Made by a program: the position numbers and the translations under genes. Below are positions 5,106 through 25,703 of a DNA stretch of 25,703 nucleotides, in pieces. The notes below the pieces were generated by a model. That model had not been told where the DNA came from. It did no database searches and worked only from the letters and a program-made list of their open reading frames with translations. The stretch is from positions 1-25,703 of IMG/VR virus record IMGVR_UViG_3300034102_001223; one strand, written 5' to 3'. Source of the stretch: a virus. Every line of letters starts with the position of its first letter. Position 1 is the stretch's first letter.

Positions 5106-6248
5106 TTAAATCCAGGTAAAAGTCTGGTTAGTAGGAACGACAACTTCAAGATCTTTAGGAGCTTCGGGTTCAGGAACAAAATCCTCCATAAGTTTATACT
5201 CATAGTTTTTGTTCAAGTACTTTGCTATTTCCTCATTTACTGTTAGAGTTTTGACCTGCACCATGTTAGAGAAAAAAGCACTAGGATTATTCAACTCTTC
5301 TCTAATAAGAGCGTTGATCATACCAGAAGTTAACACTCCTTTTTCCATTAGCTTTTGAATCTTTTCATCAGTACTAAACCCCATTCTGTGTTTATCTATA
5401 CCAAGATAGCTCAATAAACTCTTAAAGTTAACATGATTTACGCTTCTGCAGTCTCTGAGTCTTGCATGATATGTACTCATTAACTTCAAAATATAAAACA
5501 AACTTTCATTGAGTTTACAGTTAGCCATGATCTCCATCGCCAGCACATGATTGTCTTGATCAGAGCTTGATAACATTGCTGCTAATTGCTCGTAAACCTC
5601 TTTGTTAACCAACACAGCATCATCGCCATTGATATGCTTTAACAATGCACCCTCATCGATTATCTCTTTGCCGTCTAAGAATTTTACTAGCTCTTGATAT
5701 TCTTCTTCTACTTCATAAGTATAAGTAGAACCCTTGCTGTTATTAAACTCATAGGCAGGATTTACTATCAGACCTCTATACAAGCCATCATCTCCCATCA
5801 TAGAAAGAGATCTATAGTCAGAAATTATAACAGGTTGAGTATAGAACTCTAAAGCAGTTTTTACTCTTTCTATAGTAATGTCATCAAGTTTCTTCAACTC
5901 TACTAGTCCTTCAAAACAAGCAATAAACTTTTCTGTACTAACTTGATAAGACCAACTTCTTGTGAGTACTTTATTGTTACTTAGTTTACTACCAAATACT
6001 ACGTCAGCTTCTTTAAAATCTCTAACTGTTTTGATATGATAATCAAGAGCAAATTCTTTAAGCTTAACTCTAGGAATGTTTACTCCAGGCAGAAAGAAAA
6101 ACTTATCTTTCATATTAGGAGTATAGTCTTTTTTGACAATCTTAAATGGGTCTCTACCATCTATTAGGCAACTAATTTGTTCTAATTTAATGTCCCATAA
6201 TTGCCCATTAGCATCAACCTCGCCTTCAAATTTTAAAAATGTTTCCAT
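5106..6248 (-). CDS. Conserved-context protein of unknown function, 380 aa, next to the MoxR/VWA pair
   Basis: A large soluble protein with no recognised motif. The N-terminal third is beta-rich, the middle (about 185-345) is helical, and the C-terminus has a short Pro/Glu segment (PEPEAPKD) before a hydrophobic end (TFTWI). It follows the AAA+ gene by only two bases, so ATPase, VWA/metallopeptidase and this protein look like one translational unit. MoxR/VWA systems often have a third partner or substrate, and this is the obvious candidate, but that is inference from gene order. No signal peptide or membrane segment is seen. Confidence 0.7.
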   Translation of the reverse strand: METFLKFEGEVDANGQLWDIKLEQISCLIDGRDPFKIVKKDYTPNMKDKFFFLPGVNIPRVKLKEFALDYHIKTVRDFKEADVVFGSKLSNNKVLTRSWSYQVSTEKFIACFEGLVELKKLDDITIERVKTALEFYTQPVIISDYRSLSMMGDDGLYRGLIVNPAYEFNNSKGSTYTYEVEEEYQELVKFLDGKEIIDEGALLKHINGDDAVLVNKEVYEQLAAMLSSSDQDNHVLAMEIMANCKLNESLFYILKLMSTYHARLRDCRSVNHVNFKSLLSYLGIDKHRMGFSTDEKIQKLMEKGVLTSGMINALIREELNNPSAFFSNMVQVKTLTVNEEIAKYLNKNYEYKLMEDFVPEPEAPKDLEVVVPTNQTFTWI

Positions 6249-15401: not shown

Positions 15402-15804
15402 TGTGAATACTTTTTAATTTGTAATTAACTACACTACGAAATCCGTGTTTATGATCCGCAGATGGAACCAATTCTGTGTATGTTTCTGGATATACTTCAT
15501 CAACAACCCATTGTTGATAATGCGGCAATATACTTTTTCTTATAGGATCATTTTCATTACTAGTTTTTAATAAATAACTAATAGTTGCATGATCTCTACA
15601 CATTAACCTTGCTATCTCAGAATTATGTAATCCTTCTTTCATTAGTTTAATTACAAAGAGTCTTCGTAACTCTACCATATAACTGTTTTGTATGTCTTTT
15701 ACAGCTTTAAAATACCAGTGTATAGGTAAATAAGAAGCTAGTCTCATTGTAGTTTCTATGAGAGAATTAATATGATCCTCAAAACTGTCTTCATTAAATT
15801 TCAT
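15337..15804 (-). CDS. DnaA domain IV-like DNA-binding protein
   Basis: 155 aa from the ATG at 15804, which overlaps the polymerase stop (TAATG); an ATG 12 bases upstream is also possible. RRLFVIKLMKEGLHNSEIARLMCRDHATISYLLK closely follows the C-terminal DNA-binding domain of DnaA: helix, HTH and the RDHATI signature (RDHTTV in DnaA), which reads the DnaA box. There is no AAA+ domain, so it is a stand-alone DNA-binding module. Between polymerase and helicase genes, an origin-recognition or regulatory role is plausible. The rest of the protein is unrecognised. Confidence 0.75.
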   Translation of the reverse strand: MKFNEDSFEDHINSLIETTMRLASYLPIHWYFKAVKDIQNSYMVELRRLFVIKLMKEGLHNSEIARLMCRDHATISYLLKTSNENDPIRKSILPHYQQWVVDEVYPETYTELVPSADHKHGFRSVVNYKLKSIHNGQDVRQNSSTDIGIETVEGK

Positions 15805-17813
15805 TAGTGCTTCCAATTTAAAGTTTTACAAGGTTCAGCATTAAGCTTGATAGTCTTACAAAATACTTCACCTGCATTTTCCATACATTCTTTTAGTACT
15901 ATAGATAACTCTTCTGCTAGCTCAGCAGGAGCTTCTACAATCCATTCATCGTGAACCACATTAGGTAATAATACTCTAAACATCAGATCTTTCTCCAACA
16001 AATATCTAAAGAAATATATCCCAGCTAGCTTTGTAATATCCGCAGAAGTACCTTGAATAGGATAATTTAGCGACATCCTTTCGATGTCACCTTTCTTCAT
16101 AAAATATTCACGAACTTTTGGCTTGAAATAAGTCTTAAAGATAGTGGAATCTTGCGACTTTTCCAACTTATATTGATCCCAAAATCCTTCAGTTTCATAA
16201 ATTTCTTTATGAAGTTTTTGGTACTCATCAAAGAATGGAATGAAGCATTTTCTATTGCTGATATTATTGAACTGAATGTAACCCAAACTCAACGCTTGTT
16301 GCTTCTCTTTCTTGAAGTAGTTATTAAGCCCAGGGAACGCTTTAAAATAAGCTTTGTAGACTTCTTCACCCTCTTCCATAGAAATGTTTAGATTCTGCGC
16401 TATAGTTATCCCAGTGCCGCCATAATTAATAGCAAAGCCCGCACCTTTTGCGATCTGTCTTTTTTGCTTATGGTTGTCTTTAATTTCATCTAAGCTCAAC
16501 CCTGACAACTCAGGGAATATCTTAGATGCAATAAAACTATGCATATCACCTAAACCTTGTTGATAGAAATTCAGCAAGTCTTTGTCCAAAGATTTATTAG
16601 CCAACACTATTTGTTCCTGGCCGCTATAGTCGCTTACAAGTAGTAAGTTACCTGGCTGGGCTTGAAAGCAAGATCTTGTACGATTATCGGACGGGATATT
16701 TTGCATATTAGGCAACTGAGGCAAGCCTTTTTTTGGCGCACCCTTCTGACCACTAGACAATCTACCAGTGTTCATGATCTGAGTATAGTTACTATGGATC
16801 CTGCCTGTAGCTTTGTTGATATAACCAAACCAGTTTTCACCATAAGTACTTACTTCTTTTTGGTTCTCTTTGTACTCTAAATAAATTCCTACAAGTTCAT
16901 GTTTCTTTCTTTGTGGCCCTAAGACTTTCTTGTCTATAGAATCTTTCATGAAACCTGTTTCTTTATCTTTTGTCAAAGTGTCTACGCCTAAAGATTTAAA
17001 TAACGGTATAACTTGTTTCTCAGAGTTCCAGTTGATTCTACAACTTATGCCCGATTCAAACAGAGACAACTGATTATCTACAAATTGCGGATACTTATCA
17101 GCATTGTCTAGAATAAACTGATCTAGTTTATCTTTGATAGCTTGCATGTCTTTTAGATCATCTTCGCATTTCTTACGCCATTCTCCAGGGTTAAGATACA
17201 TGCCACAGTATTCAATATAAGCTAGTACCAACACAAACTCATTGTCTAAACTTGCAGTTCTCGTTAGTTGCTTTTCTTCTAATCCTACTATTTGCTTGCG
17301 TCTTATCTGATGAAGATACTTCACATCATCAGCAGCATATTTGATAACTCTTGTGCTAAGTCCTTCGCGATGAATATTACCACGAATAGATTTATCTAGT
17401 TCTATCTTACAGTATTTATAAGTCACAGCGTCCAAACTTCTTCGGGCTGTGTCAATACCAGTAGTTAAGATTCTTTCCACAAGAAAGCTATCAAATATCT
17501 TTTTAGGCACAATACGCCTATGATACAAAAACCTTAAGTCAAACTTTGCATTATGCATTATTAACTCTTTTGTTTCCAACAGCTCTTTAAATAGATTAAT
17601 ATCTACAGTGCTGCAGTCTACAACAAATTGTTTCTCACCATTGCCTAGCTGAATAGATATCAGCTCACAGGTATATGGATCAAAACCTCTAGTTTCTGAA
17701 TCATAGCCTATTATGTCTAAAGTCTTTAAATAATCTATAGCTTCTTGTACAGTAGCCATAGAATAGCCAACAGGAGTAAACATCTCCTGTTGACCTGTTA
17801 CTAAATAAATCAT
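15804..17813 (-). CDS. Family A DNA polymerase with 3'-5' exonuclease
   Basis: 669 aa, near full length for a phage Pol I-type enzyme without a 5' nuclease domain. Exo motifs: YDSE (37-40, D38 and E40), HNAKFDL (87-93) and YAADD (159-163). Polymerase motif A is SDYSGQE (394-400). Motif B is RQIAKGAGFAINYG (452-465), with R-xxx-K-xxx-F-xxx-YG exactly spaced. Motif C is HDE (621-623). SLNYPIQGTSADITK (581-595) is the conserved segment before it. This is the replicative polymerase for the module. A GGAG lies nine bases before the ATG. Family A polymerases occur in part of the crAss-like phages. Confidence 0.97.
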   Translation of the reverse strand: MIYLVTGQQEMFTPVGYSMATVQEAIDYLKTLDIIGYDSETRGFDPYTCELISIQLGNGEKQFVVDCSTVDINLFKELLETKELIMHNAKFDLRFLYHRRIVPKKIFDSFLVERILTTGIDTARRSLDAVTYKYCKIELDKSIRGNIHREGLSTRVIKYAADDVKYLHQIRRKQIVGLEEKQLTRTASLDNEFVLVLAYIEYCGMYLNPGEWRKKCEDDLKDMQAIKDKLDQFILDNADKYPQFVDNQLSLFESGISCRINWNSEKQVIPLFKSLGVDTLTKDKETGFMKDSIDKKVLGPQRKKHELVGIYLEYKENQKEVSTYGENWFGYINKATGRIHSNYTQIMNTGRLSSGQKGAPKKGLPQLPNMQNIPSDNRTRSCFQAQPGNLLLVSDYSGQEQIVLANKSLDKDLLNFYQQGLGDMHSFIASKIFPELSGLSLDEIKDNHKQKRQIAKGAGFAINYGGTGITIAQNLNISMEEGEEVYKAYFKAFPGLNNYFKKEKQQALSLGYIQFNNISNRKCFIPFFDEYQKLHKEIYETEGFWDQYKLEKSQDSTIFKTYFKPKVREYFMKKGDIERMSLNYPIQGTSADITKLAGIYFFRYLLEKDLMFRVLLPNVVHDEWIVEAPAELAEELSIVLKECMENAGEVFCKTIKLNAEPCKTLNWKH

Positions 17814-18290: not shown

Positions 18291-19169
18291 TTAAAAAATA
18301 TACCTAATAGTATTCCAAGGAATTATCTCTGCATGTAAGCTTTTAAATTCCTCTATAAATTTTGCTTTAAGATCATATCTATATCTTAGATTGACACTTC
18401 CATAAGAAGATATTTTATGTTCCTGAATGTCAGGACGCCATAATAAATCTTCACCAGGAATATCATGTTCTAAATTATACAAATGTTTTTGAGAATTGTG
18501 AGTAAGAAAAATAACTTCTGATTTCACAGAATCATCATTCCACACATAGTTTGTAGCATAAGATCTTACTAAGAGAAATAATTCTCGATAATCTTCTAAC
18601 CAGCCGTCATAGACAACTACAGGACTAAAATTAAGATGCACCTCATAGCCAGCATTTTGAAATAATTCTACAGCTCTAAGCCTTTCATTAATTATACTTG
18701 TATTAGGCTCTAAAATTGCTCTAAGTTTTTCTGGCATAAGACTAAATCTTATTCTAACCTTTTCATGTGGATCAAACTTTAGCAGCTCTTTGTTTACATA
18801 TTTAGTTGCAAGAGTTGCTTTAGCAATAGGATGATTCTTGAAGAACTCAAATATCTTTTCCCATTGATGATATTTAGCATGTGCTACAAAATCTTCATTG
18901 CAAGCTAAATCATAAGTGACAAATCCAGGATCAGTTTGATTTGGTTTTTCTACATCCGCATAAAAATAAGCATGATTATTAACAGCTGTTAAGATATCAT
19001 TATAATTTTCTGCAACTGTTAGGCCTTTAGGCTTGTGTCTTTTCATGTAGCAATAAGCGCATTCTAGAACACAGCCAAAACCAAACGAAGGAGTAATATA
19101 GTCGCTGCTTCTACCGCTAAACTTTATCTCCATGCTTTTTCTTCTTACTGTTTCTATAAGCTTGCTCAT
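18291..19169 (-). CDS. Spore photoproduct lyase-like radical SAM enzyme
   Basis: 292 aa from the ATG at 19169 (an in-frame TTG at 19175 adds two residues). The radical SAM cluster motif is FGFGCVLECAYCYMKRH, C-x3-C-x2-C at about residues 33, 37 and 40. YDLACNEDFVAHA (about 86-98) aligns with the segment of B. subtilis SplB that holds the hydrogen-donating Cys141 (AACTSDIVG), so that Cys is retained. Later blocks RIRFSLMPEKL, ERLRAVELFQNAGYEVHLNFSPVVVYDGW and IPWNTIRYIF match the family order. SPL reverses UV-induced spore photoproduct in DNA. The host group does not sporulate, so a wider DNA-damage repair role is likely. Confidence 0.85.
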   Translation of the reverse strand: MSKLIETVRRKSMEIKFSGRSSDYITPSFGFGCVLECAYCYMKRHKPKGLTVAENYNDILTAVNNHAYFYADVEKPNQTDPGFVTYDLACNEDFVAHAKYHQWEKIFEFFKNHPIAKATLATKYVNKELLKFDPHEKVRIRFSLMPEKLRAILEPNTSIINERLRAVELFQNAGYEVHLNFSPVVVYDGWLEDYRELFLLVRSYATNYVWNDDSVKSEVIFLTHNSQKHLYNLEHDIPGEDLLWRPDIQEHKISSYGSVNLRYRYDLKAKFIEEFKSLHAEIIPWNTIRYIF

Positions 19170-19171
19170 AA

Positions 19172-19414
19172 TCAACTAATTGGTAAATCCATTGCCACCA
19201 TTTCTATGTGTGATTCAGGAAGATCAAATAGATCCATTAGCTCTATCATCTTGCCATTAGACATGTTTGTTAGAGCGCTAGATTCTTCTATTAAACTTTC
19301 TGAAACTCCTTGATCATCAGGAATGCCAAATACATCGATAAAGTATCCCAATGCATGATCAAAGCCATATGCTACACTTCGACCGTCTTCTAAATTTTTA
19401 GTATATCTACTCAT
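19172..19414 (-). CDS. Small acidic protein, 80 aa (MSR start)
   Basis: Translation from the ATG at 19414 gives MSRYTKNLEDGRSVAYGFDHALGYFIDVF, with an acidic C-terminal half. This start overlaps the upstream stop by eight bases (ATGAGTAG) and repeats the junction found at 20041-20048; a further start at 19444 would duplicate upstream coding sequence. GFDHALGYFIDVF is a segment I recall from small phage proteins without known function. It ends overlapping the photoproduct-lyase start region. Confidence 0.65.
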   Translation of the reverse strand: MSRYTKNLEDGRSVAYGFDHALGYFIDVFGIPDDQGVSESLIEESSALTNMSNGKMIELMDLFDLPESHIEMVAMDLPIS

Positions 19415-24286: not shown

Positions 24287-24700
24287 TTAATCTACTATTT
24301 TAATACTATCAGCAGATTTTAATTGCTCTATTCTTTCAGGAGATAAGCCTTTGAGTAGGTCTTGTTTGGACACTTGAAACCAGGTTTCAATAGATTCCAT
24401 ACCATCATACTCATCGATGTAGTATTCACAGCCATCAGGAGCCCAAACAATAGCAAGTTCAGCACTGCTACCCCATGATTCTTTACCTAATTCTCTTACT
24501 ACTTCTACTAGTACAGGATCATGTCTTTTGATATCATTTGCATTAAAAACATCATTTTCTCCTACTATATAGTATTTGTGGTATTTACCTGATTTGACAC
24601 CATTTACTGCAATAGGAATATTTTTCTTTATTAACCATAATTCTACTGCTCGATTAGATAATCCATATCCACCATAGCATTTGTTGATTACAATTTCCAT
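24287..24700 (-). CDS. Conserved phage protein of unknown function, 137 aa
   Basis: The start MEIVINKCYGGYGLSNRAVELW and the blocks NDIKRHDPVLVEVVRELG and CEYYIDEYDGMESIETW form a pattern I recall from a widespread family of phage hypothetical proteins. No catalytic residues have been assigned to it as far as I know. It lies early in the minus-strand module after a 47-aa gene. The 118 bases between it and the next gene (24169-24286) hold no gene I can support. Confidence 0.75.
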   Translation of the reverse strand: MEIVINKCYGGYGLSNRAVELWLIKKNIPIAVNGVKSGKYHKYYIVGENDVFNANDIKRHDPVLVEVVRELGKESWGSSAELAIVWAPDGCEYYIDEYDGMESIETWFQVSKQDLLKGLSPERIEQLKSADSIKIVD

Positions 24701-24719
24701 TTGTTTAAAGGTTTAATGA

Positions 24720-24863
24720 TTAGTAATAATGAAAATATTTCTTTCTTCTAAAAGAACCATCTTCAGAGCGCATTGCTGCGATTATTTTGTTTGGTGTAGT
24801 AAATATCATACCTGATCTGGTATATTCAAATACTACTAAGATTTCGTCTGTTGATGAATACAT
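24720..24863 (-). CDS. Small protein, 47 aa, first gene of the minus module in the window
   Basis: Starts at ATG 24861-24863 after an A-rich leader (AAAACTAAAACACATG) and ends 19 bases before the next ATG. Residues STDEILVVFEYTRSGMIFTTPNKIIAAM could make a small beta-alpha fold; the tail is basic (RRKKYFHYY). It is the last gene before the structured non-coding region. No family recognised. Confidence 0.6.
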   Translation of the reverse strand: MYSSTDEILVVFEYTRSGMIFTTPNKIIAAMRSEDGSFRRKKYFHYY

Positions 24864-24891
24864 GTGTTTTAGTTTTAAAGGTTGTTATTAT

Positions 24892-24908
24892 TTACCCCTC
24901 TGCACTCA
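24892..24908 (+). repeat. 17-bp direct repeat, copy 1
   Basis: TTACCCCTCTGCACTCA, identical at 25430-25446, giving a 538-base period. It marks the start of modules A and B and includes the 5' strand of P1. Confidence 0.9.
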
Positions 24909-25068
24909 GTTGTAATAGAACCTGTGTTGTTCACGGTTTAACCCGTCCAGGTATTGCGCACTACTATCTATTACAACTGCTCACCCTTGGGAAGTGAGTT
25001 ATGGTGCATTAATACAAGTGGAACTATTGCCTCTTAATGGGACCCTTAGAATAGTTTACTCCACTTGT
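24901..25068 (+). repeat. Structured module A
   Basis: P1 24901-24905/25004-25008. P2 CAGTTGTAATAGA 24907-24919/24967-24979 (13 bp, perfect), containing ACCTG/CAGGT (24920-24924/24948-24952) and ACGG/CCGT. P3 CTCAC/GTGAG 24980-24984/24994-24998 with loop CCTTGGGAA. P4 ACAAGTGGA/TCCACTTGT 25014-25022/25060-25068, with an inner ACTATT/AATAGT helix and a TTAC bulge. Confidence 0.8.
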
Positions 25069-25138
25069 TTGCATGCCTCTTTCATGGTCACATGCTCCCA
25101 TATCTCCTGCATTATGGCTCAGGTAACCTTAATCCATT

Positions 25139-25253
25139 TGCACTCAGTTGTAATTCTCGGTCTATATAACGAGGCTTTGATACAATCTCTTCTTACAACT
25201 GTTTACTTTTAAAAGTGAAAGTAGTGCATTTGGTAGAAAGTGTAATAGCTACC
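25139..25253 (+). repeat. Structured module C
   Basis: Shares 16 bases with module A (TGCACTCAGTTGTAAT). P1 25139-25143/25224-25228. P2 CAGTTGTAA 25145-25153/25193-25201. P3 TTTAC/GTGAA 25202-25206/25215-25219 with a different loop (TTTTAAAA). P4 TGGTAG/CTACC 25231-25236/25249-25253, which competes with the long-range stem 25241-25251. Confidence 0.7.
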
Positions 25254-25423
25254 CAATAAACAGAGTCTTGGTACAAACATTCATTTGCAACTGGTTATAA
25301 ACCTCATCTGTTTTATGGTTGTGGGCATTACCCACCACTTTGATATCTACTTTTAAAGTACCAAAGGTTTTCAAGCTCTTGTCTTAAGTTTGTTTTTATG
25401 CCAACAAACACATAGCTATTACA
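25241..25423 (+). repeat. Long-range 11-bp inverted repeat enclosing module D
   Basis: TGTAATAGCTA (25241-25251) and TAGCTATTACA (25413-25423) are perfect reverse complements 161 bases apart. They enclose the fourth module: GTGGG-CATTA-CCCAC (25321-25335), CTTTG/CAAAG (25338-25342/25362-25366) with inner TACTTT/AAAGTA, and a GTTTGTT/AACAAAC hairpin near 25388-25409. Confidence 0.6.
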
Positions 25424-25429
25424 ATAGGA

Positions 25430-25607
25430 TTACCCCTCTGCACTCAATCATGATACAATGTCCGTCTAAACATTATTCTCGCCACATTGGGTCTATCACA
25501 GGTCATAGGATAGATAAATCCGTCCTCACTGCATAACATCATGATTGTCTACCCTTGGGAAGTAGAAATGGTGCATTAATAATGGCAGCCTAAAGTACTT
25601 TACTGCC
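25430..25607 (+). repeat. Structured module B (copy 2 of the 538-base unit)
   Basis: Begins with the second 17-bp repeat. P1 25439-25443/25571-25575. P2 CAATCATGAT/ATCATGATTG 25445-25454/25538-25547. P3 TCTAC/GTAGA 25548-25552/25562-25566 with the same loop CCTTGGGAA. ATGGTGCATTAATA (25568-25581) is identical to 25001-25014. P4 GGCAG/CTGCC 25584-25588/25603-25607 around AAAGTACTTT. The sequence continues structured to the window edge. Confidence 0.8.
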
Positions 25608-25703
25608 TCGTGATTTCTGTGCATACTACAACTTTTTCCCTCAACCCTATACCCGTGCAGATATAGTCTCTATAGAGTTCGACAAGTATCACTTTTCCAG
25701 TCT

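Follow-up and report, generated by a model that had tools for sequence, protein, structure and literature searches.

Two of the three related noncoding elements near the end of a phage contig, here called copies A and B, are quite probably self-cleaving ribozymes of a twister-like lineage, their predicted cut in the leftward phage transcript being the U-A step within a UAA. We file them, from their sequences, as a twister-like variant lineage (type I) rather than as twisters, because the L2 residues differ and the Rfam models fail even on a 70-nt minimal element. Standard RNA family models most likely miss the lineage, and a literature search, with most subscription papers outside its scope, found no earlier report of it.

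The elements lie in an IMG/VR virus record of 25,703 bases, analyzed at its full length (the window), in which almost every gene is on the minus strand, the genes reaching 24,700. A search for minus-strand genes between 24,880 and 25,703, where the contig ends, turned up none. The DNA polymerase (15804-17813) finds its best similarity, at 37 to 49% identity, in phages of the crAss-like group and a Leptolyngbya phage, and we take the source phage to be crAss-like because of this resemblance. The window has no tRNA gene over its 25,703 nt. A 294-aa protein (18291-19175, minus strand) weakly matches phrog_13321, of unknown function, and by our reading its CECAYCYMK stretch resembles a cysteine motif of the radical-SAM type. 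A covariance model, R1, was built from an alignment (A1) in which 33 diverse copies are written as minus-strand sequence; in the window, it finds exactly three copies. The features of this region are as follows.

24287-24700, minus strand: phrog_16527 gene, function unknown, the next gene downstream
24720-24863, minus strand: 47-aa open reading frame (ORF), its ATG 27 nt downstream of the copy A model match
24891-25014, minus strand: copy A, predicted twister-like ribozyme, RNA 5' end at 25014 (R1, 95.0 bits, E 9.1e-26)
24896-24900, minus strand: copy A, 3' side of L1, GAGGG; its GGG and the L4 CCC form the T1 pseudoknot, whose pairs covary in relatives
24901-24905, minus strand: copy A, P2 3' strand, GUGCA (from sequence)
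24907-24979, minus strand: copy A, P5 helix (24907-24919 with 24967-24979), 47-nt insert
24980-24998, minus strand: copy A, P4 hairpin, loop L4 UUCCCAAGG at 24993-24985; 5 of 5 P4 pairs covary
25004-25008, minus strand: copy A, P2 5' strand, UGCAC (from sequence), partner 24901-24905
25010-25011, minus strand: copy A, predicted cleavage site U25011/A25010, in the L1 UAA 25011-25009, by alignment to the twister UAA and the U-A scissile step (PMC6154101)
25014-25068, minus strand: hairpin ahead of copy A (25014-25022 with 25060-25068), inverted repeat I2, z -2.9
25129-25234, minus strand: copy C, diverged (R1, 49.0 bits, E 2.4e-12)
25429-25581, minus strand: copy B, predicted twister-like ribozyme (R1, 83.2 bits, E 2.4e-22)
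25577-25578, minus strand: copy B, predicted cleavage site U25578/A25577, placed as for copy A
25584-25607, minus strand: weak hairpin ahead of copy B (25584-25588 with 25603-25607), z -0.1, unsupported by energy

Read 5' to 3', the element consists of P1, UAA, P2 (UGCAC), a short link, P4 with its loop, and P5 with a variable insert, followed by A, P2' (GUGCA), GAGGG, and P1'. P1 is weak in many copies; it has 3 bp in copy A and 5 bp in copy B (25583-25579 with 25433-25429). The original prediction had described three diverged modules, each with a short helix next to a long one, and all of these helices are present. In copy A, CTCAC (24980-24984) pairs with GTGAG (24994-24998) and CAGTTGTAATAGA (24907-24919) with TCTATTACAACTG (24967-24979); in copy B, TCTAC (25548-25552) pairs with GTAGA (25562-25566) and CAATCATGAT (25445-25454) with ATCATGATTG (25538-25547); and in copy C, TTTAC (25202-25206) pairs with GTGAA (25215-25219), the third pair, T-G on the plus strand, becoming mismatched (C-A) in the RNA, and CAGTTGTAA (25145-25153) with TTACAACTG (25193-25201). 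What had been taken for constant unpaired elements are instead P2, L1, and the pseudoknotted L4. In the orientation of that prediction, TGCAC and GTGCA pair together (24901-24905 with 25004-25008 in copy A), closing a three-way junction, and the CCC preceding TGCAC forms a pseudoknot with the GGG of CCTTGGGAA. Nor do the modules make up one large RNA, as had been supposed; every copy is self-contained, with one to three per phage. Folding the region set it apart from shuffled sequence only weakly, with z of about -2 on either strand.

The proposal that these diverged noncoding copies are under selection for RNA structure is borne out by covariation in the 33 relatives of A1. Pairing is standard in 97.1% of cases, 16 pairs have changed on both sides, 0 of 500 shuffles are as good, and no slid register comes near the true one; double-change cells number 102, against 26.1 +/- 5.4 in shuffles. 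The T1 pseudoknot between the L4 CCC and the L1 GGG has compensatory changes in all three of its pairs, CCC:GGG becoming CAC:GUG in two sequences (e.g., L051), UCC:GGA in one (L011), and CCA:UGG in one (L092). For the first three pairs of P1, the pairing values are 0.79, 0.71, and 0.66, against 0.65, 0.50, and 0.46 in shuffles, each exceeding the maximum of 1000 shuffles. Around the scissile step, A5 and A6 are kept in 33 of 33 copies and U4 in 32 of 33, and the first G of GAGGG is kept in 117 of 119. The pattern used to retrieve relatives dictates the P4 loop and some of P2, so that invariance there is partly by construction, which is not true of the covariation in P4 and P5.

The strand of the original prediction has to be reversed: the RNA is the minus strand, where R1 matches all three window copies. 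With the module oriented as first written, coding in the left flank runs mainly antisense to it at every testable locus (76 of 76), the nearest right-hand ORF also lies on the opposite strand at most loci (74 of 85), and the coding beyond it to the right tends to switch strand (49 to 18). The RNA is therefore cotranscribed with the leftward phage genes, near a divergent junction; a plus-strand RNA is ruled out by the model matches and the orientation relative to flanking genes. For 32 of about 106 copies, an ATG follows the end of the R1 match at a distance of 20 to 40 nt; the small genes concerned are unrelated, and the genes downstream of type I elements are of many kinds. The elements are sited where phage messages could be cut just before genes.

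Twister is cleaved at a U-A step, with a conserved guanine at the foot of P2 participating in catalysis, and its stems P0, P3, and P5 are optional (PMC6154101). The alignments (A1 and A3) and pattern matches give type I the twister layout, P1-L1-P2-L2-P4-L4 with P3 absent, and the L4 CCCAAG pairs with the L1 GGG (T1) as in twister. Copies A and B have the UAA with its scissile U-A and the G of GAGGG. Copy C has AAA in place of UAA and AAUGG in place of GAGGG, and it is probably a decayed, inactive copy. The Rfam twister-P1 consensus, as printed for a match in locus L083, reads ccuu-UAA-cgCc-GCC-(P3)-(P4)-GUCCCAAGCC-UAAA-gGcg-GAGGG-aagg; its L1 and L4 residues are common to type I, in the same order. 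An independent retrieval pattern made only of invariant type I residues (TAATGCA..TCCCAAG..TGCAGAGGG) returned 72 sites, 61 of canonical twister form and 11 of type I. When Rfam was run on 11 loci, 13 of 13 canonical sites were called twister-P1 (E 7e-12 to 0.0051), and the type I site among them, L178, received no twister-P1 call. The canonical sites include P3-less forms, as well as forms with P4 and P5 and no P3 (L197, L233, L182), which is the type I plan. Moreover, a model of canonical P3-less twisters finds type I elements (L178 at 4.7e-7, L196 and L235 at 1.2e-6) and the type I model finds canonical ones (L177 at 6.9e-7, L233 at 1.2e-4), in a canonical set chosen with P2 = UGCA, which favors such reciprocal matches.

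Several results stand against a plain twister assignment. The Rfam twister models, RF03160 included, give no match at E <= 10 in positions 24700-25703 of the window or 3100-3250 of L012, which holds the minimal element, and Rfam scans at gathering thresholds and by E value return no family for the window or for examples of type I and of a second element, type II. The original prediction had matched the RNA to no family, and this holds for the window, which gives no plain match in Rfam, GOLLD and ROOL included. The canonical-twister model scores the window copies weakly, at 15.5 and 14.9 bits (E 0.15 and 0.22) and, with filters off, at E 0.11 and 0.74, partly misaligned. Since these scores are so low, the link of the window to twister runs through relatives with a short P5. 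The twister L2 residues are not found in the aligned type I copies, where GCC after P2 becomes YCA and AAA before P2' becomes A or AG. At the T2 (L2-L4) positions, the canonical phage set has G-C 15 times, A-U 3 times, and G-U once; type I has C or U with G, which is compatible, and the C or U pairs also with a base that extends P2.

A pattern drawn from the P4 loop and a P2 strand, CCTTGGGAAN{5,10}TGGTGCATT, occurs in at least 120 IMG/VR stretches. The same pattern has 46 matches in 257 Gb of bacterial genomes, against about 45 by chance by our own estimate, and a P4 stem is present at only one of them (L149). R1 finds relatives in 50 of 50 contigs examined, with one to three copies each, close together. 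Environmental phage contigs that carry the lineage number well above one hundred. Only 3 of the 50 contigs share the polymerase of the window, and several others carry phrog_6547 and phrog_6681, portal and terminase families that crAss-like phages also have, so the lineage appears to be spread over diverse phages of a broad crAss-like group. A search of the GenBank phage collection by DNA similarity found nothing. R1 matches in twelve named phages, mostly crAss-like, were weak, and as those inspected lay over tRNAs or inside coding sequence, they were rejected. Inserts identical in sequence turn up in P5 of different phages (L009/L030/L078/L093; L019/L076/L089; window copy A and L100); because the flanks differ, this suggests that P5 inserts are exchanged between phages. 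Second copies at L013:2426-2582, L028:8444-8572, L061:1561-1672, and L003:7447-7634 keep P5 and the 3' half intact and have an altered 5' half, in which AAUCAG replaces UAAUGCAC; they are perhaps decayed or recombined.

If copies A and B cut as predicted, at U25011/A25010 and U25578/A25577, the upstream RNA would stop shortly after a hairpin and carry a 2',3'-cyclic phosphate at its end. The downstream RNA, which for copy A would be the leader of the next ORF, would have a 5'-OH and start with the folded core of the ribozyme. The hairpin at 25014-25068 stops 3 nt short of the scissile U of copy A. Across the relatives, a hairpin beside the cleavage site has z < -2 in 31% of copies, against 9% of controls, which only partly supports such a hairpin as a general rule; as roughly one copy in three has a hairpin stronger than its control, upstream products with a hairpin at their end would be frequent. 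In L018, L020, L094, and L099, a common terminator-like hairpin (AAGAGCCUGUAACAGGGCUCUUUUGUUU) upstream of type I directly abuts the predicted cleavage site. The role is most likely processing and stability control of the polycistronic transcript; given that cleavage occurs, we put transcript processing with end protection at roughly even chances.

Three other readings have to be weighed. A twister-derived fold that no longer cleaves could serve as a structured mRNA leader, blocking 5'-to-3' decay or controlling translation of the next gene; the three-way junction and loop-tail pseudoknot in leaders of diverse genes would fit, as would the changed L2 residues. An exonuclease block like that of xrRNAs, considered for the same junction and pseudoknot, is retained only as part of this reading. 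Against such a leader, the UAA and the leading G of GAGGG are nearly invariant, as expected if cleavage is selected, and active ribozyme classes occupy the same zones; we regard it as unlikely. A cis-regulator with no relation to twister, either a riboswitch or a protein-binding element, whose shared motifs arose by convergence, would suit the 5'-leader position, the aptamer-like junction, and the lack of an Rfam twister match. However, it would have to share some 20 invariant residues with twister in the same order, along with the pseudoknot and the reciprocal model matches, and to precede genes of many kinds, and this makes it very improbable. Least credible of all is a DNA-level element, a recombination or packaging hairpin. 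The changes in P4 are almost all Watson-Crick, and the apparent exchange of P5 inserts would also agree with it, but the fixed orientation to transcription (76 of 76 left flanks) and the twister residues argue for RNA, and no associated recombinase was seen. Self-cleavage by a twister-like lineage is the reading we prefer.

Mixed collections of ribozymes near phage genes are already known (PMC10085705). In 3 of 50 contigs, hatchet ribozymes occur on the strand of type I, about 1 kb 5' of it (L023:46-208; L013, approximately 191-325; L003, approximately 5635-5767), and in L083 a twister-P1 with a CCA:UGG change at CCC:GGG lies 110 nt 5' of type I. Models of hammerhead II and twister-P3 gave nothing credible in the 50 contigs. 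In the gut crAss-like phage cr7_1 (NC_055895.1), a canonical twister at 15767-15825 (E 2.7e-12, below the Rfam cut-off) is intergenic, 66 nt ahead of gp67, and L200 has three ribozymes on one strand within 3 kb, two of them twisters and the third a twister-sister (L200:5163-5234, 2499-2553, 2812-2874). The type II element, UACUCUCAUCCAA(UU)GCAGG - variable insert - CAAGGGUUGCAACCUUG UGAGAGUA, occurs at about 30 distinct sites (L042:106-178, L016, L023, L050, L053, L055, and others), always on the same strand as type I wherever the strand of type I is known and, in many loci, usually 100 to 500 nt upstream. In 21 sequences, it is 99.3% paired with double changes at five pairs (0 of 500 shuffles), and it has no Rfam match; it is a candidate for a new ribozyme or structured RNA. 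It is conceivable, if doubtful, that the phage locus gathers unrelated self-cleaving ribozymes (twister-like, hatchet, type II) and cuts its own transcript into structured RNAs with functional, exchangeable P5 inserts, in which case type II would be a new ribozyme class.

Family models give weight to the optional P3 and to fixed L2 residues, and this appears to be why a widespread lineage of phage ribozymes has escaped notice. Were it active, the lineage would extend the range of sequence that the twister fold tolerates, show that P5-bearing forms are common and not confined to about 1%, and provide numerous natural gene-start cases in which to ask what self-cleaving ribozymes do in phages, noted as an open question (PMC10085705).

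Among known systems, GOLLD and ROOL are likewise noncoding structured RNAs of phages, with no match in the window. Hatchet (RF02678), also without a match there, occupies the same intergenic zones and strand as type I and differs in fold and sequence. Theta ribozymes, HDV-like RNAs of gut phages (PMC10879173), are likewise self-cleaving, located in phage noncoding DNA, and assigned a proposed processing role, but they have the HDV fold and lie beside tRNAs. Closer is twister type P1 (RF03160), which shares the element order, UAA and GAGGG in L1, UCCCAAG in L4, the T1 L4-L1 pseudoknot, a U-A step at the expected site, and an optional P5. In contrast to RF03160, type I has no P3, its 9-nt L4 ends in GG rather than GC(C), its P5 is usually long and variable whereas about 1% of annotated twisters have a P5 (PMC6154101), and it falls below Rfam detection. 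The P3-less IMG/VR phage twisters with P5 (L197, L233, L182) have the P1-P2-P4-P5 plan of type I; unlike type I, they retain the GC of L2 and the GCC of L4, and Rfam recognizes L197 and L233 (E 3.6e-4 and 5e-5).
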